DNA of 64,000 nucleotides from a virus, in the IMG/VR virus record IMGVR_UViG_3300009130_000011, positions 1 through 64,000 of that record; one strand, given 5' to 3'. The notes under the pieces are model-generated. The model was not told the origin of the DNA and did no database searches. It worked only from the letters and a program-made list of their open reading frames with translations. The position numbers were made by a program, and so were the translations under genes. Positions 15,557 to 29,414 of this stretch are shown here, in pieces (position 1 is the first letter of the stretch; each line of letters begins with the position of its first letter).

Positions 15557-15624
15557 TAAGTCGTTGACTATCAGCCGGTTAGCCGGCGCAGGGCGGCGTA
15601 AGTCCTTCATTGCCAATGACTTAC
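15557..15624. repeat. Tripartite palindromic repeat, copy 1
   Basis: Layout: hairpin AAGTCGTTGA...(imperfect partner), GC core ending GGGCGGCG, then AAGTCCTTCA...CAATGACTTA. It is preceded by a TTGGCACG...TGAACGGCC leader also found before copies 3 and 5. Confidence 0.8.
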
Positions 15625-15660
15625 AACATACAAAAAAACGAAAAAAAAATAACTTTTTTC

Positions 15661-15695
15661 TTGCAATTCCACGAAAAATTCTTTAAGTTTATAGT
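15661..15695 (+). promoter_or_regulatory. Leaderless promoter
   Basis: TTGCAA, 17-bp spacer, TAAGTT, 6-nt TATAGT, then ATG at 15696. Confidence 0.7.
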
Positions 15696-15893
15696 ATGTT
15701 AAACAAGAAAATACAAGTAAGAATCCAAGAGTGGTCAACTCATTGGGCAGTTAAAATCTTTGACACAGGAACGGACTACCCTCGTGTTCGGACTGCGTCA
15801 AGCCTTTCCCACCTTCGCACCATAAAGCAAGAGGAAAAGCTTAACTCTCCACGCTTTCAAGTTGTAATGCAACGCAGGCATTTTAATGCTTGA
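15696..15893 (+). CDS. Small basic protein, unknown
   Basis: 65 aa, strongly basic, with WSTHWAVKIFDTG and a C-terminal RFQVVMQRRHF beta strand. Start set by the promoter. The TTGACT box of the next gene overlaps its last codon. No family recognised. Confidence 0.72.
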   Translation: MLNKKIQVRIQEWSTHWAVKIFDTGTDYPRVRTASSLSHLRTIKQEEKLNSPRFQVVMQRRHFNA

Positions 15894-15924
15894 CTTTTAT
15901 AAAAAAATCCTTTAGTTTATACTT
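15890..15924 (+). promoter_or_regulatory. Leaderless promoter
   Basis: TTGACT, 17-bp spacer, TAGTTT, 6-nt ATACTT, then ATG at 15925. The -35 box overlaps the upstream stop codon. Confidence 0.75.
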
Positions 15925-16179
15925 ATGAATTACTCAAACAGAAATGTCCCAACTCGGAGAGTCGAGTTTCAGAATGTAACGATGGAGCTTACCAAAAGAT
16001 TCCAAGATGACCCTAGCGTGGTCAAGACCCAACGCTTGCGGTTTTCTGCTGACCTAGACCAAGAGCTAGACAATGCCTTCCTAAAGTCTCACGCAGAGAG
16101 TGTTTTCAAGTTTTGGGACATCCTAGATGTCGAGCTTGTCCACTCCTTCGTTGACTCAACCGATCAATACATATACTAA
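15925..16179 (+). CDS. Small acidic protein, unknown
   Basis: 84 aa. Basic N-terminus, then an acidic alpha-helical region (DLDQELDNAFLKSHAESVF). Its TAA ends 1 bp before the ATG of the next gene, so the pair are probably coupled. No family recognised. Confidence 0.72.
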   Translation: MNYSNRNVPTRRVEFQNVTMELTKRFQDDPSVVKTQRLRFSADLDQELDNAFLKSHAESVFKFWDILDVELVHSFVDSTDQYIY

Positions 16180-16180
16180 G

Positions 16181-16357
16181 ATGATAACAATAAAACAAAA
16201 CCCTAACTTCACCAAGTTCTTCCAAGTCTTTGCCTTTGGGCAGTACATCGACGAGGTCGAGCGTCGCAGTAAAGCCTTGCGTATAGCTACCAAGCTCGCC
16301 AAGCAACACAAGCAAGACTTTATAAATGTTGACGGCTTGATGCAAGAAGTGTCCTAA
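16181..16357 (+). CDS. FQVFAFG-family small protein, copy A
   Basis: 58 aa, starting MITIKQNPNF with FFQVFAFGQYIDEV and a basic helix (RSKALRIATKLAKQHK). It is a clear paralogue of 21163-21348 on the other strand (MITIKK...QVFAFGNLIDEV...KALRLAKTIAKQ). The shared start shows that the longer open frame is wrong. The TAA stop is the first three bases of palindromic repeat copy 2. Function unknown. Confidence 0.78.
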   Translation: MITIKQNPNFTKFFQVFAFGQYIDEVERRSKALRIATKLAKQHKQDFINVDGLMQEVS

Positions 16358-16422
16358 GTCGTTGATAATCAGGGCCTTAGGCCGCCCTGCGCCGGCTAAC
16401 CGGCTGATAATCAAGGACTTAC
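16355..16422. repeat. Tripartite palindromic repeat, copy 2
   Basis: AAGTCGTTGATAATCAGGG, core CCGCCCTGCGCCGG, then GATAATCAAGGACTTAC. It begins with the stop codon of the preceding gene. The shared leader (GTTGGCACG on the minus strand) lies on its right side, so this copy is inverted relative to copies 1, 3 and 5. Confidence 0.8.
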
Positions 16423-16531
16423 GAAACCGGCGTTCACATAGCGTGCCAACTTAATAGCTTGCGGCAAGTATAAGCCCGGGTGTAATAAGCTATAAGCTAA
16501 GCTAAAAAGAAGCTAATAGTAAAAAAAAATC

Positions 16532-16566
16532 TTGTAAATATGCGTTTTATGTGCTACCTTATAGGT
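16532..16566 (+). promoter_or_regulatory. Leaderless promoter
   Basis: TTGTAA, 17-bp spacer, TACCTT, 6-nt ATAGGT, then ATG at 16567. Confidence 0.7.
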
Positions 16567-16758
16567 ATGAATGATAAAGATAAGAAAGTAAACGGCTTCA
16601 TCGCCAAAGTTAACATCGTCGACCGCAAGTCGGGCGACATCATCGCACGGAATCAAATCCTCAAGTGTGAGCATCACACCACCATTGATGCCTTGAATCG
16701 TGACCTCGCCAAGTTTGGCTTGCCACGCAAGTTTGAGTTTGTCGATTGGATTGCATAA
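16567..16758 (+). CDS. Small basic protein, unknown
   Basis: 63 aa, starting MNDKDKKVNGF. The promoter fixes this ATG; an in-frame ATG 27 bp upstream lies inside the spacer and cannot be used by this transcript. Sequence suggests a small beta-rich fold followed by a helix. Function unknown. Confidence 0.75.
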   Translation: MNDKDKKVNGFIAKVNIVDRKSGDIIARNQILKCEHHTTIDALNRDLAKFGLPRKFEFVDWIA

Positions 16759-16765
16759 AAAAAGC

Positions 16766-16800
16766 TTGCAATAAAACTTTAAATCCTTAGTCTTATACAT
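16766..16800 (+). promoter_or_regulatory. Leaderless promoter
   Basis: TTGCAA, 17-bp spacer, AGTCTT, 6-nt ATACAT, then ATG at 16801. Confidence 0.65.
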
Positions 16801-17034
16801 ATGAATATAATTGAACAAACCCGCAAAGAATGCAACCGCGAGCTTGACCTCGGTCTTGCTCTTTCCAAAGCTGAGGGAAATCTGAATTTCCTCGCAGGAC
16901 AATCCCACGAGAATAAGCTCGGACTAAATGCCATAACTCAAGACATGGCAATCCTTGACGCCCTTAATGCGGTACAAATCGCCCGCAAAGCTTTTCAAGA
17001 AATACTTTCAGAAAAGCGAAAAAAAAGCTTGTAA
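16801..17034 (+). CDS. Small helical protein, unknown
   Basis: 77 aa, predicted all-helical with heptad-like Leu/Ala spacing (LALSKAEGNLNFLAGQ, MAILDALNAVQIARKAFQE). The stop overlaps the -35 box of the next promoter. Function unknown. Confidence 0.72.
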   Translation: MNIIEQTRKECNRELDLGLALSKAEGNLNFLAGQSHENKLGLNAITQDMAILDALNAVQIARKAFQEILSEKRKKSL

Positions 17035-17063
17035 TAAACTAAAAAATCCTTACTCTTATACTT
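17029..17063 (+). promoter_or_regulatory. Leaderless promoter
   Basis: TTGTAA, 17-bp spacer, ACTCTT, 6-nt ATACTT, then ATG at 17064. Confidence 0.65.
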
Positions 17064-17264
17064 ATGGAAAATACTGATTCACTCGACCGCACCGCCCACG
17101 CCTTCGGCATGACCGATCTCGAATTTGAGGAACGCTCTCAAGTCGAGGCTGAGATTGCCGCCCAACAAGTCATCCGTAGATGGCAAGAAGAGGAGCAGAT
17201 CCTCAGAGAGTCCTTTGAAGCTCTCAGCCTCTTTGACGAAGAGGAAAACCCCCATCTCTTCTGA
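17064..17264 (+). CDS. RTAHAFGMTD-family small protein, copy A
   Basis: 66 aa, acidic. Its N-terminus (DSLDRTAHAFGMTDLEFEE) is almost identical to that of 19849-20073, while the rest differs: here a Gln/Glu-rich helix. The conserved N-terminal module with variable tails suggests a targeting or partner-binding segment. Function unknown. Confidence 0.75.
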   Translation: MENTDSLDRTAHAFGMTDLEFEERSQVEAEIAAQQVIRRWQEEEQILRESFEALSLFDEEENPHLF

Positions 17265-17296
17265 CGGGTTGGCACGCTTCTTGAACGGCCCTTTTA

Positions 17297-17364
17297 TAAG
17301 TCGTTCATAATCAAGGGCTTAGGCCGCCCTGAGCGAGCTAAGTAGCTGATAGCCAAGGACTTAC
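17297..17364. repeat. Tripartite palindromic repeat, copy 3
   Basis: AAGTCGTTCATAATCAAGGGCTTA, core GGCCGCCCTGAGCGAGC, then AAGTAGCTGATAGCCAAGGACTTAC. Preceded by the shared GGCACGCTTCTTGAACGGCC leader. Confidence 0.8.
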
Positions 17365-17389
17365 GACGCAAAAAAAGTTAAAAAAGTTC

Positions 17390-17424
17390 TTGACTTTTCG
17401 GGGTTGCTGTGCTATGTTATAGGT
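17390..17424 (+). promoter_or_regulatory. Leaderless promoter for mini-ORF 1
   Basis: TTGACT, 17-bp spacer, TATGTT, 6-nt ATAGGT, then ATG at 17425. Confidence 0.75.
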
Positions 17425-17448
17425 ATGATTAAGAAAATCCCAAACTAA
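17425..17448 (+). CDS. 7-residue leader peptide 1
   Basis: ATG-to-TAA frame encoding MIKKIPN, directly under a full leaderless promoter. The TAA is followed at once by a structured RNA motif. Two further copies (MKMKIPN, MKMKTPN) lie at 17545 and 17605. Ending in Pro-Asn-stop suggests slow termination, as in attenuator peptides, but no downstream gene is obviously controlled. Confidence 0.5.
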   Translation: MIKKIPN

Positions 17449-17449
17449 G

Positions 17450-17483
17450 AGCCGTAGAATGGCGGGACGTGGCTCCCCGCAGA
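17450..17483 (+). ncRNA. Alternative-pairing RNA motif, copy 1
   Basis: Order of segments: GAGCC, GTAGAAT, GCGGG, ACGT, GGCTC, CCCGC. The first and third pair-partners (GAGCC/GGCTC) and second set (GCGGG/CCCGC) interlock, giving either a pseudoknot or two mutually exclusive hairpins. Copy 2 preserves both pairings with different bases. Confidence 0.55.
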
Positions 17484-17509
17484 TCACCAAAAAAAACTTA
17501 AAATAATCC

Positions 17510-17544
17510 TTGACTTTTAGCCCAAACTCCGTTAACTTATAAGT
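17510..17544 (+). promoter_or_regulatory. Leaderless promoter for mini-ORF 2
   Basis: TTGACT, 17-bp spacer, TAACTT, 6-nt ATAAGT, then ATG at 17545. Confidence 0.75.
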
Positions 17545-17568
17545 ATGAAAATGAAAATCCCCAACTAA
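17545..17568 (+). CDS. 7-residue leader peptide 2
   Basis: Encodes MKMKIPN under its own leaderless promoter. It is the first half of a 60-bp unit repeated in tandem at 17605, in the same frame. Confidence 0.5.
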   Translation: MKMKIPN

Positions 17569-17599
17569 GCGCCGTATAAGTCGGGACGTGGCGCCCCGA
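17569..17599 (+). ncRNA. Alternative-pairing RNA motif, copy 2
   Basis: Segments: GCGCC, GTATAAG, TCGGG, ACGT, GGCGC, CCCGA. Relative to copies 1 and 3, A-T became C-G in the first helix and G-C became T-A in the second: compensatory changes in both helices. Confidence 0.6.
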
Positions 17600-17604
17600 A
17601 GATT

Positions 17605-17628
17605 ATGAAAATGAAAACCCCCAACTAA
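17605..17628 (+). CDS. 7-residue leader peptide 3
   Basis: Encodes MKMKTPN, in frame with and 60 bp after peptide 2. It has no promoter of its own, so it is probably on the same transcript. Confidence 0.45.
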   Translation: MKMKTPN

Positions 17629-17663
17629 GAGCCGTAGAACGGCGGGACGTGGCTCCCCGCAGA
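17629..17663 (+). ncRNA. Alternative-pairing RNA motif, copy 3
   Basis: Segments: GAGCC, GTAGAAC, GCGGG, ACGT, GGCTC, CCCGC, nearly identical to copy 1. A truncated palindromic repeat follows. Confidence 0.55.
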
Positions 17664-17676
17664 GTTTGGTAACCCT

Positions 17677-17737
17677 CTTATAATCAAGGACTTACGCCGC
17701 CCCTGTCCGCGTAAGCGGTTGAATACCAAAGACTTAT
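17677..17737. repeat. Tripartite palindromic repeat, copy 4 (truncated)
   Basis: The left arm is shortened to TTATAATCAAGGACTTAC; the core CGCCGCCCCTGTCCGCG and the right arm ending AAAGACTTAT are kept. Confidence 0.7.
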
Positions 17738-17807
17738 GAAACATAAGTACAGAAATCATGCCAATTCATGCGATAGGATAGTGCAAAAAATTAGTTGAAA
17801 GTTTTTC

Positions 17808-17842
17808 TTGACTTTTGGCGTTTTTTGGGTTATGTTGTAGAC
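17808..17842 (+). promoter_or_regulatory. Leaderless promoter
   Basis: TTGACT, 17-bp spacer, TATGTT, 6-nt GTAGAC, then ATG at 17843. Confidence 0.75.
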
Positions 17843-17938
17843 ATGAAATTAACTGAAAGAGAAAAAATCCTCCTCGCAATCGTCCTTCCTAAAAAGGAAA
17901 AAAAAGCAAAAAAAAGTTTGCAATTCCGCCAAAACTAG
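17843..17938 (+). CDS. 31-residue basic peptide
   Basis: Encodes a Lys-rich peptide (MKLTEREKILLAIVLPKKEK start) with a short hydrophobic stretch ILLAIVL after an acidic turn. Strong promoter and matched start support it despite its size. The -35 box of the next promoter lies inside it. Function unknown. Confidence 0.6.
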   Translation: MKLTEREKILLAIVLPKKEKKAKKSLQFRQN

Positions 17939-17946
17939 TTTAGCTT
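17918..17946 (+). promoter_or_regulatory. Sigma-70-type promoter with 32-nt leader
   Basis: TTGCAA, 17-bp spacer, TAGCTT. Here the ATG (17985) is about 38 nt beyond the -10, so this unit is an exception to the leaderless rule. Confidence 0.65.
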
Positions 17947-17984
17947 ATATACATACAACAAAGATAACCTAACTCAAAAAAATT

Positions 17985-18173
17985 ATGACCAAGTCCGAAA
18001 TGCTCAAAGAAATCTCCATCCTCCACGAAACGCTGAAAGATTGCGTTCTCACCATCGCTGACCGCGTTGCGATCCGCAACGAGATCGGTGACCTGCAGGA
18101 CAGGGTCGCCCTCCTCGACTTCCAAAACGAAGGCGAGGACTTCGACTTCGGTCATCACTCCGAATGGGAGTAA
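17985..18173 (+). CDS. Small acidic helical protein, unknown
   Basis: 62 aa, helical with a coiled-coil-like pattern (MLKEISILHETLKDCV, RNEIGDLQDRVALLDF) and a very acidic C-terminus. No SD is evident in its A-rich leader. Function unknown. Confidence 0.72.
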   Translation: MTKSEMLKEISILHETLKDCVLTIADRVAIRNEIGDLQDRVALLDFQNEGEDFDFGHHSEWE

Positions 18174-18188
18174 AAAGCAAAAAAAAGT

Positions 18189-18223
18189 TTGCAATCACCT
18201 AAAAAATCGTTTAAATTATACTC
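18189..18223 (+). promoter_or_regulatory. Leaderless promoter
   Basis: TTGCAA, 17-bp spacer, TAAATT, 6-nt ATACTC, then ATG at 18224. Confidence 0.72.
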
Positions 18224-18445
18224 ATGAATAAAGCAGAATTAAATCAAAAATTCGAGCTTCTCAATCGAGAAGTAAATGCCCTTTGGGATTCTTCAAAGTC
18301 TTTGCAAGATCAATCTGCCGAGTACAGCCAAGCTTGGCAAGCTCGTTTCGAGGTTTCTCGTGAACTTCGCAACTTTCGGGAGCTTGGCGGTTCTCGCTCT
18401 CGTTGCCATGATATGGCTTTTAAGATCCGCGAGCAAAACGCTTAA
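18224..18445 (+). CDS. Small helical protein, unknown
   Basis: 73 aa, helical, with an N-terminal amphipathic segment (LNQKFELLNREVNALWDSS) and an Arg-rich middle (EVSRELRNFRELGGSRSR). Followed 26 bp later by a gene with a classical SD. Function unknown. Confidence 0.72.
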   Translation: MNKAELNQKFELLNREVNALWDSSKSLQDQSAEYSQAWQARFEVSRELRNFRELGGSRSRCHDMAFKIREQNA

Positions 18446-18471
18446 AGTCTAACCTCAACAGAAAGGAAAAT

Positions 18472-18624
18472 ATGTTCATCCTCAAATCTATTCTCAACCA
18501 AGCGGGCGCCGTTTGGAAAGTTGAAAGCATCGCAATGCGCGAGCGTGACGCAAGGCGTCTCCTCCGTAGGCGTCAAGCACAAAATGACGGCAGTCGCCGT
18601 TACGGGCTTTTCCCTGCCAAGTAA
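18472..18624 (+). CDS. 50-residue Arg-rich protein
   Basis: Encodes MFILKSILNQAGAVWKVES followed by an Arg-rich stretch (RERDARRLLRRRQAQNDGSRR). A GAAAGGAAAA ribosome-binding site sits 5-14 nt upstream, so it is translated from the mRNA of the preceding gene rather than leaderless. Function unknown; nucleic-acid binding is plausible. Confidence 0.6.
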   Translation: MFILKSILNQAGAVWKVESIAMRERDARRLLRRRQAQNDGSRRYGLFPAK

Positions 18625-18652
18625 TTGGCACGCTTCTTGAACGGCTGTTTCA

Positions 18653-18720
18653 TAAGTCGTTGACTGTCAGGCGGTTAGGCCGACAGGGGCGGCGTAAGTC
18701 ATTGATAGTGTGACACTTAC
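18653..18720. repeat. Tripartite palindromic repeat, copy 5
   Basis: AAGTCGTTGACTGTCAGGCGG, core CGACAGGGGCGGCG, then AAGTCATTGATAGTGTGACACTTAC. It has the shared GGCACGCTTCTTGAACGGC leader. Confidence 0.78.
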
Positions 18721-18763
18721 GACACGCAAGAGAATAGTGTAAGAAAATAGTTGAAAGTTTTTC

Positions 18764-18798
18764 TTGACTTTTCGCATTTTTTGGCTTATGTTATAGGC
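18764..18798 (+). promoter_or_regulatory. Leaderless promoter
   Basis: TTGACT, 17-bp spacer, TATGTT, 6-nt ATAGGC, then ATG at 18799. Confidence 0.75.
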
Positions 18799-18906
18799 AT
18801 GAAAGTTAAAGTGAGAAAGACAATCCTTATGCCCAAAAGCATTCCGCACAAGCGGAAAAACAAAGTCTTGCCACGCAAGGCAAAGCACAAGGGAATTGTG
18901 CAATAA
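18799..18906 (+). CDS. 35-residue highly basic peptide, copy A
   Basis: Starts MKVKVRKTILMPKSIPHKRK and has 15 or so Lys/Arg. It is similar to 25918-26037 on the minus strand (MKAREIKIRKPILFTKARPF...), also leaderless. The charge suggests RNA or DNA binding. Function unknown. Confidence 0.62.
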   Translation: MKVKVRKTILMPKSIPHKRKNKVLPRKAKHKGIVQ

Positions 18907-18924
18907 AATAGTTGAACATTTTTC

Positions 18925-18959
18925 TTGCAATTTTACAAAAAATCCTTTATATTCTTAAT
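18925..18959 (+). promoter_or_regulatory. Leaderless promoter
   Basis: TTGCAA, 17-bp spacer, TATATT, 6-nt CTTAAT, then ATG at 18960. Confidence 0.7.
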
Positions 18960-19103
18960 ATGAAAACAAAAGAACAACTTCTTAAAGACCTTGCCTTTTG
19001 GCAGGATAAGGTCAATCGTTCACGCAAGGAGTCTCTCCGCTCCATCAGAGTTCTGCACCTTCAGCATGTGCAGGATGAACTCAAGAAACTTCAAGAAAGT
19101 TAA
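18960..19103 (+). CDS. 47-residue helical protein
   Basis: Starts MKTKEQLLKDLAFWQDKVNR; fully helical and amphipathic. The longer in-frame opening at 18912 overlaps the promoter and is rejected. Function unknown. Confidence 0.65.
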   Translation: MKTKEQLLKDLAFWQDKVNRSRKESLRSIRVLHLQHVQDELKKLQES

Positions 19104-19112
19104 GTTTCGGGG

Positions 19113-19149
19113 TTGACTTTATCGCTACAAACTGACAAAATATAATCTT
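19113..19149 (+). promoter_or_regulatory. Promoter with near-leaderless start
   Basis: TTGACT, 17-bp spacer, CAAAAT, then 8 nt (ATAATCTT) before the ATG at 19150. Confidence 0.6.
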
Positions 19150-19341
19150 ATGAAAATCACTAACGGAAAACTATACTTCTCAAAATCTAACGCTTGTGTT
19201 GTCCGAGTCTTGCGGGCAGACCAAACCCAAAAGGTTGCAACGCTGAAGCATCACGCTTCTGATATGGTGGAATCCGAGGTCTTGTTTAAGGACTTGACTC
19301 CCGCCACTTCCGAGCAAGTAAAATCCTACTTGGGCAAATAA
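19150..19341 (+). CDS. Small basic protein, unknown
   Basis: 63 aa, beta-rich N-terminus (ITNGKLYFSKSNACVVRVLR) then a polar helix. It has the general look of the 15029-15214 protein, a compact barrel that starts with a turn and two strands, but no real alignment. The next mini-ORF starts 1 bp after its stop. Confidence 0.72.
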   Translation: MKITNGKLYFSKSNACVVRVLRADQTQKVATLKHHASDMVESEVLFKDLTPATSEQVKSYLGK

Positions 19342-19342
19342 G

Positions 19343-19414
19343 ATGATTGAAATGATTCTTATAATCGCCTTCGCTCTAGTAATCCCAACGCTTGCAAAAG
19401 CGAACGCACAATGA
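19343..19414 (+). CDS. 23-residue hydrophobic peptide
   Basis: Encodes MIEMILIIAFALVIPTLAKA plus NAQ: a single membrane helix or a bare signal-peptide-like sequence with an AKA motif. The stop overlaps the next ATG (ATGA), so all three genes are coupled. One of several one-helix micro-proteins in this window. Confidence 0.55.
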   Translation: MIEMILIIAFALVIPTLAKANAQ

Positions 19415-19671
19415 GCGAAGCAGAAGTTGCACGATACAACGAAACACTTGCAGATCTCTCTCAAAGCATTGATCTGGGTTGGAAAAAGTTTTGGCAAGAG
19501 CGAGGAATAAACGCGGCTCTTGCTTGTAAGGATATAAATACGGGCGGACCTTGGTACTCCCGAGGCTATGGCGAGCAGGACGCCACAGGCGTTTTCGCCC
19601 ACATGCTAGAACCCGCCGAGCTTATCACCCGAGCAGTCACCCGCAAGAAAACCTTAAAGCAGTTTCATTAA
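19411..19671 (+). CDS. Small protein, unknown
   Basis: 86 aa, mixed helix with SQSIDLGWKKFWQERGINAA and an aromatic-glycine middle (GGPWYSRGYGEQ). Its TAA stop coincides with the first bases of repeat copy 6. Function unknown. Confidence 0.72.
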   Translation: MSEAEVARYNETLADLSQSIDLGWKKFWQERGINAALACKDINTGGPWYSRGYGEQDATGVFAHMLEPAELITRAVTRKKTLKQFH

Positions 19672-19735
19672 TCCTTGATAATCAAGGGTTTACGCCGCCC
19701 TGAGCGACATAAGTCGTTGAACACCAAGACCTTAC
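19669..19735. repeat. Tripartite palindromic repeat, copy 6
   Basis: TAATCCTTGATAATCAAGGGTTTA, core CGCCGCCCTGAGCGACA, then AAGTCGTTGAACACCAAGACCTTAC. Begins with the preceding gene's stop codon. Confidence 0.8.
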
Positions 19736-20073: not shown

Positions 20074-20077
20074 GCCC

Positions 20078-20145
20078 TAAGTCGTTGACAATCAAAGGGT
20101 TAGCCCGCCCTGAGCGGCGTAAGTAGCTAATGATCAACGACTTAC
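20078..20145. repeat. Tripartite palindromic repeat, copy 7
   Basis: AAGTCGTTGACAATCAAAGGGTTA, core GCCCGCCCTGAGCGGCG, then AAGTAGCTAATGATCAACGACTTAC. Confidence 0.8.
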
Positions 20146-21452: not shown

Positions 21453-21519
21453 TAAGTCTTTGTCTTTCAATGACTTGCGCCGCCCAGAGCGCCCTAAGTG
21501 CCTGAGTATCAATGACTTA
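21453..21519. repeat. Tripartite palindromic repeat, copy 8
   Basis: AAGTCTTTGTCTTTCAATGACTTG, core GCCGCCCAGAGCGCC, then AAGTGCCTGAGTATCAATGACTTA. Its right end supplies the stop codon of 21517-21681. Confidence 0.8.
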
Positions 21520-21681
21520 GTAGCCTAACCAAACCAAAACCTCTTGTGCTTCATACTCTTCCCTGTCTCCCAAGTCATCAAAGAATTGCTCGATATCTTC
21601 GCAATGATGCCTTGCCAATTCAAGCAAAGCTCTTTCTCTCGTTATAGTTAAACCTTCGGCTGAATCGTAATAGTCCATCAT
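21517..21681 (-). CDS. 54-residue acidic protein
   Basis: Starts MMDYYDSAEGLTITRERALL and is helical and acidic. It overlaps the end of the upstream GP88-like gene by 4 bp (coupled) and ends inside repeat copy 8. Function unknown. Confidence 0.62.
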   Translation of the reverse strand: MMDYYDSAEGLTITRERALLELARHHCEDIEQFFDDLGDREEYEAQEVLVWLGY

Positions 21682-22394
21682 GAATTTATACCTTCTTTAA
21701 CGAATCCTGTCAAATCTTTTTTGGCAAGACCTTTTTCGATAAGCCCGACGACCACGCCTTGCTTGTCAAGAAATCGCAAGTCCGATTCGTCGCCATTGAT
21801 AACCTCGACACCATTCCAAGTTTCAGGTAATTGGTTACGAAAGACAACGGCAACATTACCGCCCATTTCCAAAACTAGCTTGGCGATCTTTTCATTCGTT
21901 TCGGAGCATGAAAAAGTCAAGTGGTAGTTGCTTGGCAACTCGCCATTGAGAAAGCGTTGCATCCTCTTAAATGACTTGGTATAATCATAAAATTGAGTCT
22001 TGCCGTGCTTTTCAAAGAGGGTTACCCCATCTTCGTTTATAATGTTTTCCCATGCAATATCGCTTGTAAGGTTAGGACGGAAAACCGCTTGCAAACCTTT
22101 CTTGCTTGCCGACTTAATAGTTGAAGTAATTTCCTTTGATAGCTTGGCAAGGAAATCGAACCTTTGCTCGAAAAAGAGCTTAGTCTTTGCAATTCGTGAA
22201 TCTTGAACAGAATTCATTTGCCCACGACCTGCCGTATTCAAACAAGCCATGGTGCAACCTTTGGAACGCCATTGGCAAACTTCATAACCCGACAAATTAG
22301 CGGGAGCTAAGTGGATGCCTTTAGTTAAATATCCGAACGCCTCGCCTTTTGTGATCTTGGCGTTCCCTGCGGTGAGTAGAGTTGTTTTAATCAT
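21678..22394 (-). CDS. GP88-like phage protein
   Basis: 238 aa. The N-terminal pattern LLTAGNAKITKGEAFGYLT, then IHLAPANLSGYEVCQW and GCTMACLNTAGRG with closely spaced Cys, matches a conserved phage family (gene product 88 / DUF7227-type, seen in mycobacteriophages and marine phages). The biochemical role is unknown; the Cys cluster suggests a metal or Fe-S site. A leaderless promoter fixes the start. Confidence 0.72.
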   Translation of the reverse strand: MIKTTLLTAGNAKITKGEAFGYLTKGIHLAPANLSGYEVCQWRSKGCTMACLNTAGRGQMNSVQDSRIAKTKLFFEQRFDFLAKLSKEITSTIKSASKKGLQAVFRPNLTSDIAWENIINEDGVTLFEKHGKTQFYDYTKSFKRMQRFLNGELPSNYHLTFSCSETNEKIAKLVLEMGGNVAVVFRNQLPETWNGVEVINGDESDLRFLDKQGVVVGLIEKGLAKKDLTGFVKEGINS

Positions 22395-22687: not shown

Positions 22688-22754
22688 TAAGTCCTTGAAT
22701 ACCAACGCTTTCCGGCGCCCAGAGCGACGCAAGTCGCTGATTGTCAACGACTTA
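22688..22754. repeat. Tripartite palindromic repeat, copy 9
   Basis: AAGTCCTTGAATACCAACGCTTT, core CCGGCGCCCAGAGCGACGC, then AAGTCGCTGATTGTCAACGACTTA. Its right end supplies the stop codon of the 22752-22982 gene. Confidence 0.8.
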
Positions 22755-22982
22755 GTCGTCTTCTCTTAGCTCATCGAAATACTCTTCGAGCCTTGGGAGG
22801 TCAAGACTGCTGTCGTTGTAAGCTACCCTGTCGGGAGTCTCGGTATAGCCCACCTCTCGCATTTGCTCAACAAAGTTTGCGTAAGTTCCGCACTCTTTGG
22901 CGAAACTATACATTCCCTCGTCGTTGCCGATCCAAAGAGCGATATTCCAAGTTTCTCTGTTTTTCCATCCGTTGTAGCTCAT
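22752..22982 (-). CDS. Conserved phage protein (NRETWN family)
   Basis: 76 aa. The opening SYNGWKNRETWNIALWIGND is a widespread motif of small proteins in marine phages and plasmids (DUF7249-like), function unknown. The C-terminus is acidic. It overlaps the upstream gene's stop by 4 bp and ends inside repeat copy 9. Confidence 0.78.
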   Translation of the reverse strand: MSYNGWKNRETWNIALWIGNDEGMYSFAKECGTYANFVEQMREVGYTETPDRVAYNDSSLDLPRLEEYFDELREDD

Positions 22983-23787: not shown

Positions 23788-23855
23788 TAAGTCATTGTCT
23801 GGCAAGGACTTGTGCCGCTCAGGGCGGCATAAACCCTTGAGTCGCAAAGGCTTAT
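23788..23855. repeat. Tripartite palindromic repeat, copy 10
   Basis: AAGTCATTGTCTGGCAAGGACTTG, core TGCCGCTCAGGGCGGCA, then AAACCCTTGAGTCGCAAAGGCTTA. The core is a perfect GCCGC/GCGGC-type hairpin. Confidence 0.8.
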
Positions 23856-23859
23856 GAAA

Positions 23860-24066
23860 TTAGAACTTCAATGCCTTTAGGCTCGTGTTGTTCTTTAGCC
23901 ACCTGCGAAGCGGGTGAAATGCTTTGGCAGACATATGAGCCAAGTATTGCTCTCCGTTCTTTGCCATGATCATATACCCATTTGCAGTTGCCCGAATCTC
24001 CTGAATATCGGGGCATTTCTTTATTTGCTTTAGAACTTTGCGATTACCGCTCTCTGAATGTTTCAT
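23860..24066 (-). CDS. Small basic protein, unknown
   Basis: 68 aa, strongly basic (KHSESGNRKVLKQIKKCPDI start and RRWLKNNTS near the end), alpha/beta pattern with a central ATANGYMIMAKNGEQYL hairpin, like a small RNA-binding fold. A leaderless promoter fixes the ATG. Confidence 0.72.
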   Translation of the reverse strand: MKHSESGNRKVLKQIKKCPDIQEIRATANGYMIMAKNGEQYLAHMSAKAFHPLRRWLKNNTSLKALKF

Positions 24067-24366: not shown

Positions 24367-24375
24367 GAAAAAGCA

Positions 24376-24491
24376 GCCCTCTGTGAGATTCGAACTCACC
24401 TCTTTGACTCTAAAACGATGATCGGTCGCTCGCAGGCTTAACTAGTATACTGCCGAGAGCCATTGTTTTCACCAATGTAAACTAAGAGGGC
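24376..24491 (-). tRNA. tRNA-like element with enlarged centre (possible pseudo-tRNA)
   Basis: The acceptor arms GCCCTCT and AGAGGGC are perfectly paired. A D-arm (GTTT...AAAC with GG in the loop) and a canonical T-arm (GTGAG, TTCGAAT, CTCAC) are present. The middle is about 64 nt instead of 22-35 nt. A possible anticodon stem GGCTC/GAGTC encloses a 46-nt loop containing its own GCAG/CTGC hairpin. No 3' CCA is encoded (TGC follows), unlike the other two tRNAs here. No anticodon can be assigned. It could be a decayed tRNA, an insertion-bearing tRNA or a mimic. Confidence 0.55.
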
Positions 24492-24574: not shown

Positions 24575-24642
24575 TAAGTGTCTGTTAATCAATGGTTTGC
24601 GCCGCTCAGAGCGCCATAAGCCCTTGACCATCAATGACTTAC
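24575..24642. repeat. Tripartite palindromic repeat, copy 11
   Basis: AAGTGTCTGTTAATCAATGGTTTG, core GCCGCTCAGAGCGCC, then AAGCCCTTGACCATCAATGACTTAC. Confidence 0.8.
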
Positions 24643-24660
24643 AGAAAGTAAATGCCCAAT

Positions 24661-24689
24661 AAAAAAGCCCCCTCGGGGTGAGGGGGCTT
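24661..24689 (-). terminator. Terminator of the DUF932 gene
   Basis: A perfect 10-bp stem AAGCCCCCTC/GAGGGGGCTT with loop GGGGT, followed on the minus strand by a T-run. Confidence 0.9.
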
Positions 24690-24714
24690 ATTTGCCTATT
24701 TGGCGACTGACCCT

Positions 24715-25644
24715 TTAGAAGGGGTAGTCATCCTCTGCATCATATAGATCGGCAGGAACTTCGCCATCTATGTTTCCTGCTACCTCAAGAACTTGAGGGG
24801 CAGGGGCATGAGCAACTTCGACAAGTTCAGCTTCCTCGACTTGAGAATCGAAAGCTGAAAGATCGAAACCGACCTCAGAGTCAAGAACAGAGTGCAATGC
24901 CTCAGAGCGTTGAGGCAAGGCAACAAGATTGCCCTTGTATACCTCGGTAAAGGCATTATAAAGGGAGTTCATGTTTCTGTCCCAAAACTCGGTGTGGTCA
25001 GACTTTTCCCATTGGTCAACCACATCAGCAATCTTAGTCTTGCTGACTGCACCTGCTTTGTAGGCACGAATCACAAGATCGTTGACTTGAGCGTTGGTCA
25101 AATCAAAATCCTTGTAGGATACGATGCGTTGATCTTGACCCATCCAAAAATTGAACAACTTGCCCAAAGTGCGAGAGATCACATGATCTAGCTCGGAAAG
25201 GATGTTCTTAGTGTGCCTGCGAGCCAACTTGACCGAATTGGTAAAGATGAGGTTGTCGCAAACAAATGGAGCGTCACCTGCACACAATCCTGCAGGGAAG
25301 CACTTGTCGTGAGCATTACGCAATCCAACGATTGTGCCTCTCTCGGTGTTTTCCCTGTTTGGGTGAGTGACCTCAAACAATCCAAAGTAGCGTTTGCCAC
25401 CTCTTGCGAGGTTGTGGCACTCGTCTACAACTTCAAACCCACCTTGCTCAAGATGGTTACGAGTCTTGTCAATCAAGAGATTGTGCGAAATAGGCTGATA
25501 AGAAACGGAGTGCGTTCCGTCCTTGTTCGCCTCTTTGCGATACTCGATATCGGGAGTCACTACATCAGCGACTTCCCCTAGCGTTACTACCTTATGCTCG
25601 CCTCCGCAGATGGCGAGATTAATTTTGTTTTTCGTGTTAGACAT
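24715..25644 (-). CDS. DUF932-like phage/plasmid protein
   Basis: 309 aa. The central block HNLARGGKRYFGLFEVTHPN, then GTIVGLRNAHDKCFPAGLCAG and FVCDNLIF, is the DUF932 (phage/plasmid-like protein) signature: charged R-N-S/A-H-D then a cys-asn strand. An acidic C-terminal tail follows (DLYDAEDDYPF). It is the largest gene between 14.5 and 34 kb, with its own leaderless promoter and terminator. DUF932 proteins often travel with replication or recombination genes; their biochemical role is unsettled. Confidence 0.78.
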   Translation of the reverse strand: MSNTKNKINLAICGGEHKVVTLGEVADVVTPDIEYRKEANKDGTHSVSYQPISHNLLIDKTRNHLEQGGFEVVDECHNLARGGKRYFGLFEVTHPNRENTERGTIVGLRNAHDKCFPAGLCAGDAPFVCDNLIFTNSVKLARRHTKNILSELDHVISRTLGKLFNFWMGQDQRIVSYKDFDLTNAQVNDLVIRAYKAGAVSKTKIADVVDQWEKSDHTEFWDRNMNSLYNAFTEVYKGNLVALPQRSEALHSVLDSEVGFDLSAFDSQVEEAELVEVAHAPAPQVLEVAGNIDGEVPADLYDAEDDYPF

Positions 25645-25679: not shown

Positions 25680-25682
25680 GGG

Positions 25683-25928
25683 TTAATTTCTGTAAAAGTC
25701 TTGTGTGGTATCTTCTGACATCAACTTTTCGTAAAGTGATGCTTGTTCCGAAACGATCTTGAAGCTTATGCCGATAAGGCTAATCATTGCTAAGTCTTCC
25801 TCGTTGAGCTTGCCCATTTCATTCATGGGGTTGATGAGCTTCTCGAATATGAAATCCATACCCGAAGACATTACCTCTTCTGCTTGGGGGCATTCAAATT
25901 CGTTTGTGAAATCTTCATTAATATTCAT
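25683..25928 (-). CDS. Small acidic helical protein
   Basis: 81 aa, acidic, helical (FIFEKLINPMNEMGKLNEED). Its ATG lies within the last codons of the upstream basic peptide, in another frame. Function unknown. Confidence 0.7.
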   Translation of the reverse strand: MNINEDFTNEFECPQAEEVMSSGMDFIFEKLINPMNEMGKLNEEDLAMISLIGISFKIVSEQASLYEKLMSEDTTQDFYRN

Positions 25929-26037
25929 AGCGTTTTTTATGTTTGAGTTTTCTGTCTAAGGTTTTGTTCTTCATCTTGAAGGGGCGAGCCTTAGTGAAAA
26001 GGATCGGCTTTCTAATCTTAATTTCCCTTGCTTTCAT
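25918..26037 (-). CDS. 39-residue highly basic peptide, copy B
   Basis: Starts MKAREIKIRKPILFTKARPF and has about 16 Lys/Arg. Similar to 18799-18906. Leaderless promoter fixes the start; it overlaps the next gene by 11 bp. Possibly RNA- or ribosome-binding, by charge only. Confidence 0.6.
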   Translation of the reverse strand: MKAREIKIRKPILFTKARPFKMKNKTLDRKLKHKKRYEY

Positions 26038-26072
26038 AATATATATTCTGACAGATTTTGAGTAAACCGCAA
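26038..26072 (-). promoter_or_regulatory. Leaderless promoter, CTGTCAG class
   Basis: Minus strand: TTGCGG, 17-bp spacer ending CTGTC, AGAATA, 6-nt TATATT, then ATG at 26037. Confidence 0.65.
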
Positions 26073-26142
26073 GAAAAAAAAAGTTTTTAAGTGAAGTTTT
26101 TTTTGTCGCTTATAGCTAGAATAAGCTGAGCTTATGATTCCG

Positions 26143-26210
26143 TAAGTCGTTGGGTCGCAAGGACTTACGCCGCCCAGAGCGCCCTAACTCGTTGGTATGG
26201 AGCGACTTAT
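26143..26210. repeat. Tripartite palindromic repeat, copy 12
   Basis: AAGTCGTTGGGTCGCAAGGACTTA, core CGCCGCCCAGAGCGCC, then TAACTCGTTGGTATGGAGCGACTTAT. It ends with the stop codon of the next gene. Confidence 0.8.
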
Positions 26211-26539
26211 GCCATCGCGTTGTGCATAGATTCGTAGAAACCTTTGTCTGCCGTCCCATCGTCTTTGCGAACTTGAAGCTCCTCCGTTTCAGCAGGGAAG
26301 ACATGGCAAGGTTCGTCAGCACCATTTTGCTTAATGTACCAAGCGGGTGGATCGAAAGGTTGAACAAGCATTCCAATGAAGCCATACTCCACAAAATACT
26401 TCAAAACTTTTGATCGACCAATGCCATTGATCTTTACATTAACTTCTGATCCTACAGCAGGTATGGGTTGATCTGATCCCCATGCTAGTTTCTCAAACTC
26501 GGTGTAGGAGTTTACGGGTTGTTCGATTTTTTCGTGCAT
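26207..26539 (-). CDS. Small protein, unknown
   Basis: 110 aa with a beta-rich centre: IPAVGSEVNVKINGIGRSKV then YFVEYGFIGMLVQP. This resembles a small OB or SH3-like barrel, as in phage modulators that bind a partner. Leaderless start. Its stop codon lies in repeat copy 12. Function unknown. Confidence 0.75.
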   Translation of the reverse strand: MHEKIEQPVNSYTEFEKLAWGSDQPIPAVGSEVNVKINGIGRSKVLKYFVEYGFIGMLVQPFDPPAWYIKQNGADEPCHVFPAETEELQVRKDDGTADKGFYESMHNAMA

Positions 26540-26574
26540 AATAGTATTCTCTCAGTTTTTGTTGTGATTGTCAA
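26540..26574 (-). promoter_or_regulatory. Leaderless promoter, CTGAGAGAATA class
   Basis: Minus strand: TTGACA, 17-bp spacer ending ACTGA, GAGAAT, 6-nt ACTATT, then ATG at 26539. Confidence 0.78.
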
Positions 26575-26792
26575 TTACAAAATGGATCGGGTTTCCCAAG
26601 AGTATAATCCCATGAGATAGTTGGGTCGCAGTCTAGCATCTCTAATACTTTCTGCCAAGTTTCAGCTACCTGCGTAGTAAATTCACTCTCTCCCATTTCG
26701 GGGTAGACATGACTTATGTCGTTTGGATCGTAGACATTAAGGACATCAAAGATTACCTCAAGGTCGGCTCGGTTTAGGCTAACTTTATCCAT
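26571..26792 (-). CDS. Small acidic protein, unknown
   Basis: 73 aa, acidic, starting MDKVSLNRADLEVIFDVLNV. The ATG overlaps the stop of the upstream gene by 8 bp, the usual coupling here. The longer frame from 26915 runs through the upstream gene and is rejected. Function unknown. Confidence 0.65.
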   Translation of the reverse strand: MDKVSLNRADLEVIFDVLNVYDPNDISHVYPEMGESEFTTQVAETWQKVLEMLDCDPTISWDYTLGKPDPFCN

Positions 26793-26967
26793 TTTGCTTT
26801 GCTTCTTCATTTTTAACTTTGCTAAGTTGGTCAATAGTCTTCGCAAGAAATATAAGTTCTTCCCTTGCAGTCCTCTTCCCCTCAAATGAGGCGTTTTCGT
26901 TTTCGAGAACCGCAATGTAAATCTTTACTGCGGATTCCCAAGTCGGAGTCATATCAATCGTTTTCAT
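26785..26967 (-). CDS. Small helical protein, unknown
   Basis: 60 aa, helical: WESAVKIYIAVLENENASFE, then REELIFLAKTIDQLSKVK. The promoter fixes the start. Function unknown. Confidence 0.7.
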   Translation of the reverse strand: MKTIDMTPTWESAVKIYIAVLENENASFEGKRTAREELIFLAKTIDQLSKVKNEEAKQNG

Positions 26968-27003
26968 AGTATAAATCTTAAAAAATTTTCGTTAAGTTGT
27001 CAA
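26968..27003 (-). promoter_or_regulatory. Near-leaderless promoter
   Basis: Minus strand: TTGACA, 17-bp spacer, TAAGAT, 7-nt TTATACT, then ATG at 26967. Confidence 0.72.
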
Positions 27004-27007
27004 GCGT

Positions 27008-27427
27008 TTACCACCAAGAAGAGTAAAATACTTTCTTGCCTTGTGCTATGGCTTTGTACGCATCAGATATAAACTGCAAGTCAGTTTCCTTGTAATAGTA
27101 ATCACCATCTTCGTAGGGCGTTCCATCCTCCTTCTCCCAAGAGTAAGAATCACTACCAAAGAAGAAACCGCCTGTTTCGGGCATATGCTTTTGATTGATA
27201 ACTGCCTCAAGTTGCTCAAGGTCAGTAAGCGTTAGCTCGACAGGAACACAATTAAATTCTCCCATGCCCCCGCTATCTAAATCATCTAAATTACCTTCGT
27301 ATGGTCTGCCCTTGTCCTCCCAAAGTTGCTCCATGTATCCTTGGAGGCGGTTGTGCTTTCTCCAATCAACGAGATGCTCGGTTTCTCCGTTCTTGTCTTT
27401 TGCGTATGCGTATTGATCTAGTCCCAT
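27008..27427 (-). CDS. Conserved phage protein (MGLDxY family)
   Basis: 139 aa. The start MGLDQYAYAKDKNG, then WRKHNRLQGYMEQLW, and TGGFFFGSDSY followed by a C-terminal SDAYKAIAQGKKVFYSSWW, match a phage protein family of unknown function that is common in cyanophages and other marine myoviruses. An AAGGAG motif precedes the ATG. Its promoter is a few tens of bases further upstream (TTGCGT, 17 bp, ATACTC), so this is an SD-led gene. Confidence 0.8.
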   Translation of the reverse strand: MGLDQYAYAKDKNGETEHLVDWRKHNRLQGYMEQLWEDKGRPYEGNLDDLDSGGMGEFNCVPVELTLTDLEQLEAVINQKHMPETGGFFFGSDSYSWEKEDGTPYEDGDYYYKETDLQFISDAYKAIAQGKKVFYSSWW

Positions 27428-27523
27428 GATTTTCTCCTTATGTTTAAGTTAATTTGTATATATGAGTATGACAGGTCATAAGTAAAACGCAAGAAAAAAA
27501 ATCAAATAAAGTTAAAATAGTCA

Positions 27524-27591
27524 TAACCCGTTAGCTATCAAGCACTTACGCCGCTCAGGGCGACGCAAGCCGCTGATAGTCAACGACTTGC
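27524..27591. repeat. Tripartite palindromic repeat, copy 13
   Basis: TAACCCGTTAGCTATCAAGCACTTAC, core GCCGCTCAGGGCGACGC, then AAGCCGCTGATAGTCAACGACTTGC. Confidence 0.78.
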
Positions 27592-27641
27592 GAAGTTTCT
27601 CATTAACCCTACAACACGAACATACTCAAAGGCTTATTTGG

Positions 27642-27875
27642 TTAGGCTCTATTTAGTGATACGATTCTATCATATCGAAAAGAGCGAATGCCATTCTTGT
27701 TATGGCAGTATGCCCTGAAGCCCGCAGTAACAAGCTTCTCACTTACATTGCCAAACTCATTGACATGCAAAGGCTTCTCAATGGTGTACATTTCGGTGCG
27801 TCCATCCTTAGTGGTATAGACCAAGCTATACAATGGGTTGAACATTCTTTTAATTTTATTAATTATCTTCTTCAT
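27642..27875 (-). CDS. Small basic protein with WYL-like tail
   Basis: 77 aa, basic N-terminus. The C-terminal FRAYCHNKNGIRSFRYDRI has the F-x-x-YC...R-x-F-R-x-D-R-I pattern of WYL domains, which bind nucleic acids or ligands in phage and CRISPR regulators. Only the C-terminal third of such a domain is present, so either a mini-WYL or chance. It overlaps the preceding gene's stop by 17 bp. Confidence 0.62.
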   Translation of the reverse strand: MKKIINKIKRMFNPLYSLVYTTKDGRTEMYTIEKPLHVNEFGNVSEKLVTAGFRAYCHNKNGIRSFRYDRIVSLNRA

Positions 27876-28098
27876 TTGTATTATCCTCCGTTATTGGGTT
27901 TGCGTTATAAAAATTGTAAACATCACACGCTTCTTGAGAGTTATCACATGTCACGCCTATGACATCCCTTGGCTCTTCAATGGGACTCCAAGGTGTCTCC
28001 GACTCTTCAAAATATACTGCCCACAATTCTGCGTCTTCATCATATTCGGGAAGACCAAGAGGTTTGCCGACACATACTGCTTCTACATGTTTATTCAT
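27859..28098 (-). CDS. Small acidic protein, unknown
   Basis: 79 aa, acidic, starting MNKHVEAVCVGKPLGLPEYD. The ATG overlaps the upstream stop (ATGA); a GTG three codons earlier is less likely. The C-terminus ends in an Asn/Glu/Asp tail. Function unknown. Confidence 0.68.
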   Translation of the reverse strand: MNKHVEAVCVGKPLGLPEYDEDAELWAVYFEESETPWSPIEEPRDVIGVTCDNSQEACDVYNFYNANPITEDNTNEEDN

Positions 28099-28277
28099 AA
28101 ATCCCACTCTCCCGCTTTTACATTGTCAATATCTTGCATCGCCTTATCATAGGCGGTGCTTTCGCTAGTGTCTTGAATCTCGTCATCGTATAGTTCAAGT
28201 ATATCATTTGCATACTGAATGTTAAAATTTTCTTCTTTAACTAATCGTTCTAGTTCTGTTTTTAATTGTTTTCTCAT
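28095..28277 (-). CDS. Small acidic helical protein
   Basis: 60 aa, helical, acidic (LERLVKEENFNIQYANDILE). Coupled at both ends by ATGA overlaps. Function unknown. Confidence 0.65.
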   Translation of the reverse strand: MRKQLKTELERLVKEENFNIQYANDILELYDDEIQDTSESTAYDKAMQDIDNVKAGEWDL

Positions 28278-28501
28278 AGTGCTAGTCTCGTAAGTTTTGG
28301 TTCGTAGTTATGAAGGGTTACTCCGAAGTGAGATGCAAGCTCGGCAATCAAATCGTTGTAGTGCCAAGTGTCGTAGGCATGATTAAGCAAGGCTTCTTGT
28401 TCGTCTGCGGTGTGACCATCTCTAAGTTCGTCATAAATCTCGAATATGTTCATGTTGCCATCCCACATATTCACTTGCCATTCGATGTCTGCTTTATCCA
28501 T
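28274..28501 (-). CDS. Small acidic helical protein
   Basis: 75 aa, helical (EIYDELRDGHTADEQEALLN). Overlaps the upstream stop by 8 bp. Function unknown. Confidence 0.68.
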   Translation of the reverse strand: MDKADIEWQVNMWDGNMNIFEIYDELRDGHTADEQEALLNHAYDTWHYNDLIAELASHFGVTLHNYEPKLTRLAL

Positions 28502-28697
28502 TTTTAACCTCCTTGATAATTTTTTCCATTTGTTCTAAGACGGACTTCTTGTTACCTTTTAATCCGTACTCGGCTTTTACGATTGAATATGCTGATTGAC
28601 CTCTTCTGCTCATTCCAAGGCACTCCAACTTGAGAGCGGATCTGAGACTGAGGAATCGAAACATATCGATTTGTTCGGGTGTGTCTAATGTAATCAT
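28494..28697 (-). CDS. Conserved cyanophage-type small protein
   Basis: 67 aa. The segment LRSALKLECLGMSRRGQSAY then SIVKAEYGLKG is a short conserved phage family pattern in large marine phages (function unknown); basic and helical, plausibly nucleic-acid binding. A near-leaderless promoter fixes the start and opens a five-gene set. Confidence 0.75.
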   Translation of the reverse strand: MITLDTPEQIDMFRFLSLRSALKLECLGMSRRGQSAYSIVKAEYGLKGNKKSVLEQMEKIIKEVKNG

Positions 28698-28733
28698 GGT
28701 TAAAATACTATTGAATTAATGCGTCTGTGTCAA
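28698..28733 (-). promoter_or_regulatory. Near-leaderless promoter
   Basis: Minus strand: TTGACA, 17-bp spacer, TAGTAT, 7-nt TTTAACC, then ATG at 28697. The -35 overlaps the end of the previous gene. Confidence 0.72.
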
Positions 28734-28956
28734 CACTTTTCTCATTGTTTTTCTTTAATTCCCAACTAATATCATAGAGGTACTGACTGATGAAGTCGAG
28801 CGATCCCGCTATGTTTTTTAATTGAAACAAAGTTTCATCGTTGTTCTTTCTCATCTCGTAGAGTTCGTCTGCAATTCCATTGATTGCTACGACATCTTCG
28901 GATAGTTCGTGTCCTCTTTTAAGGATCTGCTTTGCTTTTTCCATAGTCTTATTCAT
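28708..28956 (-). CDS. Small helical protein, unknown
   Basis: 82 aa, helical with coiled-coil heptads (QLKNIAGSLDFISQYLYDIS). Overlaps the upstream gene by 8 bp. Function unknown. Confidence 0.68.
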   Translation of the reverse strand: MNKTMEKAKQILKRGHELSEDVVAINGIADELYEMRKNNDETLFQLKNIAGSLDFISQYLYDISWELKKNNEKSVDTDALIQ

Positions 28957-29128
28957 TTGACATTTCCTCCTCGTCTAGTACTTTTTGTTTTAGCTCCTCT
29001 AGCAATTCAAAGGTTGAGTACCAAGGATCTGTCTTGTCTACCTCACCCTCCATTTCACTATATAAAATATAATCTTTAACTTCCTCAATACATTGGGAAA
29101 CAGGAATCTTAATCCTAAGCATTCTCAT
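28949..29128 (-). CDS. 59-residue acidic protein
   Basis: Starts MRMLRIKIPVSQCIEEVKDY; later WYSTFELLEELKQKVLDEEE. It overlaps both neighbours (14 and 8 bp) as part of the packed operon. Function unknown. Confidence 0.62.
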   Translation of the reverse strand: MRMLRIKIPVSQCIEEVKDYILYSEMEGEVDKTDPWYSTFELLEELKQKVLDEEEMSNE

Positions 29129-29291
29129 TTTGCTCCTCCTCTTCTCTGACTTTCATTAATAGCACGGCAAGCGTGGCAAATGTTTCTCCCCAAGGACTAT
29201 CGTCATTAGTCGCTCCAAGGCGTTGTAGTTTCATCATCACTTGTTCAACGGCAAGTGAGAGATGGTATTCGTTGTCTTGTTCAATCTTCAT
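29115..29291 (-). CDS. Small acidic helical protein
   Basis: 58 aa, starting MKIEQDNEYHLSLAVEQVMM. A leaderless promoter fixes this ATG; the first 16 codons of the longer frame are promoter. It opens a set that runs through 28708. Function unknown. Confidence 0.7.
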   Translation of the reverse strand: MKIEQDNEYHLSLAVEQVMMKLQRLGATNDDSPWGETFATLAVLLMKVREEEEQNENA

Positions 29292-29326
29292 ACCTATTAG
29301 TTTGACAGATTCTTGGGTTAAGTCAA
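29292..29326 (-). promoter_or_regulatory. Leaderless promoter, CTGTCA class
   Basis: Minus strand: TTGACT, 17-bp spacer ending CTGTC, AAACTA, 6-nt ATAGGT, then ATG at 29291. Confidence 0.75.
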
Positions 29327-29346
29327 CACCTTTTTTCAAATAAACG

Positions 29347-29414
29347 TAACTTACTGAATACCAACAACTTGCGCCGCCCAGAGCGCCGTAACCCCTTGAC
29401 CTTCAGTGACTTAG
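29347..29414. repeat. Tripartite palindromic repeat, copy 14
   Basis: TAACTTACTGAATACCAACAACTTG, core GCCGCCCAGAGCGCCG, then TAACCCCTTGACCTTCAGTGACTTA. Last copy; none is seen between here and 64 kb. Confidence 0.78.

Follow-up and report, generated by a model that had tools for sequence, protein, structure and literature searches.

A two-armed palindromic DNA element at gene-module borders in a lineage of uncultured phages

We describe a repeated DNA element that lies at the borders of gene modules in a lineage of uncultured phages. It was recognized in a stretch of 64,000 nucleotides (the window), bases 1-64,000 of the 102,754-base (102.7-kb) virus record IMGVR_UViG_3300009130_000011, which encodes terminase, PhoH, rIIA/rIIB, DNA ligase and a clamp-loader-like ATPase. 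Each element has two palindromic arms around a GC-rich core, and its copies form one cluster per genome, in which nearly all neighboring blocks of small genes are separated by a copy. The element is common to the lineage, with arms that have survived the divergence of the viruses; it behaves as a feature of the DNA and not of the transcript, and gene order changes at the module borders where it lies. The explanation that we favor, with a probability of roughly 40%, is that the elements are protein sites that delimit gene modules and act as junctions for their exchange. Phages reshuffle small accessory genes rapidly, at physical junctions that are usually invisible. Here, a lineage marks them recognizably, with a site that has outlived deep divergence. 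The element thus lets module borders be read in uncultured genomes, and it offers a concrete sequence with which to fish out the cognate protein and to ask whether module exchange is site-specific.

We postulate that each element, as double-stranded DNA, could be the binding site of a protein that is sequence-specific and probably dimeric; in each, two 25-bp palindromic sites flank a palindromic spacer of phage-specific length. An array of such sites, among the accessory genes upstream of the packaging genes, would delimit self-contained expression modules, each with a promoter, one to a few small genes and often a terminator. Gene order would be exchanged at the borders that the elements mark, and module exchange might proceed by recombination between elements, either homologous or site-specific. 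We infer from the sequences that a protein recognizes the arms, and we suspect that recombination can take place at the element itself.

Anatomy and distribution of the element

The element family was the top-ranking repeat in an unbiased repeat search of the window. Its 14 copies align without gaps as a unit of 67 bp, with a 25-bp palindromic arm, a GC-rich core whose length is 17 nt in every copy and a second 25-bp arm. A preliminary description of the window had reported 14 copies of a 68-bp repeat; the copies and their positions stand (Table 1), the unit length is corrected to 67 bp (25+17+25), and the ungapped alignment bears out the palindromic arms and GC-rich core. The whole record contains 24 arm matches (at most 3 mismatches), as opposed to 2 for a reversed control pattern, and all 24 are at 15,557-29,413, in agreement with the earlier claim that copies occur only in the small-gene region. 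Spacing between elements is irregular (0.3-2.5 kb). Nearly all copies in the window follow a gene's 3' end and precede the next promoter, and several provide the TAA stop of the neighboring gene, as had been proposed. Placement always at a gene 3' end, also proposed, holds for nearly all copies in the window but not for the relatives, where some copies are between divergent promoters.

The two arms are near-direct copies of one 25-bp palindrome. Half-site frequencies indicate that the half-site TAAGTnnTTGA is kept across phages, with A2, A3 and T9 conserved in 98-100% of 1,100 half-sites. The cores have a GC content of 82% and are themselves palindromic, with a paired fraction of 0.54 as against 0.37 in shuffles (z 20). 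Inside nearly every phage the core length is constant or varies by 1-2 nt, and the core sequence is near-constant. Between phages the core differs in sequence and in length (15, 16, 17, 21-25, 27, 28 or 33 nt) while the arms persist. Cores are more alike within phages (identity 0.72) than between them (0.54); the corresponding values for arms are 0.75 and 0.68.

Relatives were fetched by a protein search with the GP88-like gene at 21678-22394, and with a profile built from the 14 copies, L008-L012, L017 and L032 (labels of this kind are our own) each proved to have 6-15 elements. The one-arm pattern TAAGTnnTTGnnnnnCAAnnACTTA gave at least 120 matches in IMG/VR, and among the matches listed, 59 loci had paired-arm families. 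Nine large records (98-170 kb) with elements each have a single cluster of 7-15 copies over 8-15 kb, within about 3-16 kb of the terminase gene. Their terminases are 23-65% identical to that of the window, and they have in common virion genes and a weak sigma-70-like protein (PF04542, TIGR02937; window 10032-10751, minus strand). The most diverged array-bearing phage, G011, has only virion, sigma-like, rII, clamp-loader-like and UvdE-like genes in common with the window's record.

Not all relatives carry the standard array. Among terminase relatives that cover the region, recognizable arrays are present in about 7 of 14, as judged from coordinates. In G527, G530 and G535 the inner half-site is altered to CAATTATATGA; the variant elements of L424 (G527:140000-152000), which have this inner half-site, also have AT-richer cores, and two of them directly follow intrinsic terminators. 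Close relatives L014-L016 are without the standard array, and L015 and L016 have instead an unrelated GC-rich palindromic repeat (GCGGGGGGGCCCCGC core) beside promoters. A core-specific pattern search for further window-type phages returned only the contig of L017. Elements with a core near that of the window (CCGCCCAGAGCGGC) are found in L211 (PBIO01000012.1), labeled as a Halobacteriovorax metagenome-assembled genome, which is possibly a phage contig binned with its host. By BLAST, neither the element nor the consensus arm had a credible match among cultured phages, and a literature search on the element sequence and on palindromic intergenic phage repeats found nothing describing the element.

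A DNA-level site at module borders

Several results point to an element that behaves as double-stranded DNA, or as one fixed DNA strand, and not as part of a transcript. The base changes between copies had been thought to be compensatory, and they are not. In the 14 copies, 72.7% of cells are paired in the local hairpins (74.9% in shuffles) and 73.5% in the long fold (75.9% in shuffles), and covariation scores are under those of shuffles for both folds. In a larger set of 275 distinct elements, from 45 distinct phage loci with at least 3 copies each, the local arms show no covariation (z ~0). The long fold (h2:h3) has negative covariation (z -4.5), which could be caused by mis-orientation of near-symmetric copies and is not used as support. 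Conserved half-site positions without covariation indicate a recognized sequence rather than a paired stem. The sense strand has no folding advantage over the antisense strand (45 vs 33, p=0.30), and no element matched an Rfam family above its gathering score. In the sense strand there is an excess of G-U over A-C in the 5' arm (80 vs 37), which is reversed in the 3' arm (55 vs 75); this asymmetry is unexplained and is not used here.

The placement of the elements leads to the same conclusion. Some copies are between two divergent promoters (L011 9641 and 14004; L012 8174). Of 316 elements, at least 46 have a textbook intrinsic terminator aimed at them and lie beyond it, and one (L008 10964) sits between two convergent terminators. 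In three phages (L008, L011 and L012) the orientation of the element is unchanged across the switch in transcription strand, and in L012 the stabler strand is mostly the same DNA strand on either side of the switch. Thus, divergent placement, terminator position and fixed orientation argue for an element that acts at the level of DNA rather than of the transcript. Polarity is uniform in the arrays of L008, L011, L012, G007 and G010. It is mixed in the window, in part because the window core is nearly symmetric.

The elements are located at module borders, and gene order changes there. We counted adjacencies of gene families, based on open reading frames, in seven related phages. Immediate adjacency across an element is kept in 43 of 117 comparisons (37%), whereas adjacency across a gap of at least 60 nt without an element is kept in 73 of 82 (89%) and across gaps of less than 60 nt in 287 of 359 (80%). 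An earlier count of common genes gave 100 of 325 with an element and 412 of 513 without. Where an adjacency is kept across an element, the element is retained as well (94 of 100), and adjacencies kept without one likewise stay free of it (403 of 412). Elements are found on both flanks of modules, including at divergent junctions, and the block of families 13-21 occurs in either strand orientation among the phages and is still bounded by elements. The preliminary description had set two outcomes against itself, arms that do not covary and copies at random positions in related genomes; the arms indeed do not covary, and positions in the relatives are strongly non-random.

Other observations weigh against the elements as exchange junctions. 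The adjacency comparisons, some 800 in all, are not independent of one another, and they use mechanical gene calls from open reading frames. Rearrangement at the borders might simply follow from the location of elements between transcription units. The window and L017, the closest pair of phages (~88-92% DNA identity), are the sole pair usable for mapping breakpoints between close strains, other pairs being identical fragments, and their alignment breaks 88-422 nt from elements and never inside one. Modules that occur in two phages bear the core type of the resident phage, and the gene-side arm travels only weakly with the 3' end of its gene (an association reached by 16 of 500 shuffles). Searches for enzymes were negative as well. 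Tyrosine recombinases (PF00589) are absent from the window's record and 20 other element-bearing records, and the integron integrase (TIGR02249) from the 5 phage records tested, although in both cases the records may be incomplete; Y1 transposases (PF01797) are absent from 15 phage records.

Competing explanations and the cognate protein

Of the alternatives, an operator array survives best, although we think it unlikely. A phage or host regulator would bind the arms and control the early promoters of the small genes. There is a precedent in SPBRE, the repeated element of the temperate phage SPbeta, to which the repressor MrpR binds (PMC10516654). Like our element, SPBRE is repeated between the genes of a single phage and suits a DNA-binding protein of its own. 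It is a motif of 15 bp found in promoter regions, whereas the element described here has two 25-bp arms and a core, occurs at every type of module border and is in phages with no integrase or repressor that would indicate lysogeny. Promoters, where recognized, lie outside the element, which often ends a few tens of nucleotides upstream of the -35 box (median 41 nt; 25th-75th percentile 28-82 nt). However, this distance is highly variable, and we found no fixed spacing from the element to the next promoter. A recognized promoter is within 220 nt, on at least one side, of only 68 of 180 elements, and there are copies at convergent junctions without a promoter on either side (window 20078; L011 9147). 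The single arms that we found in a genome of Verrucomicrobiota (G278) would suit an operator, as they are mostly upstream of genes and several are between divergent genes. In the phages, no DNA-binding regulator is common to all nine large records, and the sole non-virion candidate is the weak sigma-like protein. Since no phage-encoded candidate was found, a host factor is possible; the arm-binding protein would come either from the host or from the phage, and in the phage it would be small or evolve fast.

The host itself might be of a planctomycete type. A DUF1501 gene adjoins a PSCyt2-PSD1 gene in the phage record (G000 86,449-87,720 and 87,732-89,759; the pair is L257:2449-5759, minus strand). 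Both families are found mainly in planctomycetes and related bacteria, which makes such a host plausible, and the two genes are possibly host-derived. Arms of this kind are rare in both phyla, with exact copies in 16 of 199 Planctomycetota and 20 of 289 Verrucomicrobiota genomes sampled, and many of the single matches in bacterial genomes are probably due to chance. One planctomycete genome, G028, has dispersed two-arm repeats, with 30 arm sites and none in the control. The arms in planctomycete chromosomes, together with those in G278, suggest a possible link to host DNA biology. A second Verrucomicrobiota genome (G460) has 13 exact arm matches scattered over several contigs and 0 in the reversed-pattern control; most of those inspected are inside coding regions, and they are unexplained.

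The repeats of G028 also bear on a second alternative, which we consider improbable, that the element is a selfish or domesticated repeat resembling a REPIN. A doublet of repetitive extragenic palindromes (REPs) would form hairpins in single-stranded DNA, and a host REP-associated tyrosine transposase (RAYT, a Y1 transposase) would act on these to copy it. One pair of repeats in G028, with the same arms as the element, brackets a RAYT that passes the NCBIfam cut-off, and the element has the anatomy of a REPIN, an extragenic palindromic doublet with a characteristic fixed spacer that can fold as one long hairpin when single-stranded (PMC3116915). However, G028 has 8 Y1 matches, of which only 1 has two-arm repeats on its flanks, and the search for a phage-encoded RAYT was negative in the 15 records noted above, so that candidate was rejected. 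REPs and REPINs are defined by a conserved GTAG/GTGG head followed by a palindrome (PMC3686654), whereas the aligned copies of the element have no such head and their arms are near-direct copies of one 25-bp palindrome. In addition, the element is limited to a single cluster in one region of each phage and has been kept through deep divergence, unlike a recent invader.

We also doubt that the element organizes the genome as a centromere-like partition site or as a site for DNA condensation, replication or packaging. The single polar cluster in each genome, its location near the terminase gene and an orientation that is fixed along the chromosome are what such a function might predict. In contrast, the copies are exactly at module borders and follow the rearrangement of modules, their spacing is irregular, and close relatives (L014-L016) lack the standard array. 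Pfam scans that covered most of the window's record found no ParA or ParB.

A further possibility, which we regard as similarly doubtful, is a distinct kind of cassette system, in which attC-like two-arm sites and an undescribed recombinase, encoded by the phage or the host and not recognizable as a tyrosine or Y1 enzyme, would reshuffle accessory modules that are ready to be expressed. In the attC sites of integrons (59-base elements), a variable and imperfectly palindromic center separates two simple sites of ~25 bp, and each simple site is composed of inverted half-sites. Small mobile gene modules end in such sites, which form arrays of uniform polarity and are homogeneous within an array, as in superintegrons. 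The element resembles them in its two simple sites around a variable palindromic center, its place at module ends, its homogeneity within an array and, in the five arrays named above, its uniform polarity. It differs in its half-site, which is not that of the GTTRRRY and RYYYAAC core boxes, in that the phage modules have promoters of their own, and in that a module has copies at its two ends. G022 and G028 have integron integrases, and within 1.5 kb of these no such repeats occur. A cassette array served by a tyrosine recombinase was rejected, as the searches for PF00589 and for integron integrases were negative in the phages.

Mobile regulatory cassettes of T4-type phages, the PeSLs of Arbiol et al. 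(2010), are reportedly repeated intergenic stem-loops tied to module shuffling in a plastic region. Our element is also repeated between genes where modules are shuffled. A PeSL contains a promoter, whereas here the promoter is outside the element, and the two-arm element is kept across a very diverse lineage.

Least probable is an RNA 3'-end element (a terminator, stabilizer or processing site), despite the location of most window copies at gene 3' ends, RNA folds that are stabler than mononucleotide shuffles (mean z -3.6) and GACCCC-UNCG-GGGTC hairpins at six loci with 33-nt cores, since there is no covariation or sense-strand bias, copies are at divergent junctions and beyond genuine terminators, and orientation is constant across the transcription switch in three phages. 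RNA structure was rejected on these grounds. The identity of the element as an intrinsic terminator was rejected because no U-tract follows the core and real terminators stand beside the at least 46 copies mentioned above; there is no T-run after the core in the window, and only 27 of 316 family members have five or more T's within 12 nt of either end. The preliminary description had likewise noted that the element is not an ordinary terminator, and the genuine terminator near element 11 is indeed separate from it. Among the candidates listed there, a protein-bound DNA site fits best, and the RNA 3'-end stabilizer is dropped. The element fails the defining features of attC sites, of REPs and REPINs and of terminators, and we file it in none of these classes. 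In its behavior it comes closest to a boundary or an exchange site.

Individual copies and neighboring features

Table 1. Copies of the element in the window and their surroundings
Element	Position	Context
1	15557..15623	part of a 104-nt unit, repeated inverted at 16350-16453
2	16355..16421	gives TAA stop to gene 16127-16357(+)
3	17297..17363	32 nt past gene 17064-17264(+)
4	17670..17736	–
5	18653..18719	28 nt past gene 18472-18624(+)
6	19668..19734	gives TAA stop to gene 19411-19671(+)
7	20078..20144	convergent junction: plus-strand genes left, minus-strand genes right
8	21453..21519	–
9	22688..22754	gives stop to gene 22752-22982(-)
10	23788..23854	adjoins end of gene 23860-24066(-)
11	24575..24641	past intrinsic terminator 24661-24691 (minus strand) of DUF932 gene 24715-25644(-)
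12	26143..26209	gives stop to gene 26207-26539(-)
13	27524..27590	–
14	29347..29413	final copy of cluster

The first two elements are parts of longer, 104-nt units (15525-15628 and 16350-16453) that are inverted relative to each other, 83% complementary and flank genes 15696-16357. These extended units have a 30-nt flank in common with the elements at 17297 and 18653. A run of apparently leaderless promoters occupies the plus strand of the window from 15.0 to 19.9 kb, with the layout TTGACT-like box, ~17 nt, TAnnTT, 6 nt, ATG. A tiny repeated reading frame (family D20) is present in three copies, at 17424-17459, 17544-17579 and 17604-17639, each followed by a conserved GC hairpin-like stretch.

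Two RNA matches were found in the window. A tRNA-like match of 117 nt (RF00005, 38.6 bits) is inside the cluster at 24375-24491 on the minus strand; it is not called by ARAGORN and may contain an insertion. A manA RNA motif (RF01745, 85.9 bits) is outside the cluster, at 30440-30652 on the minus strand.

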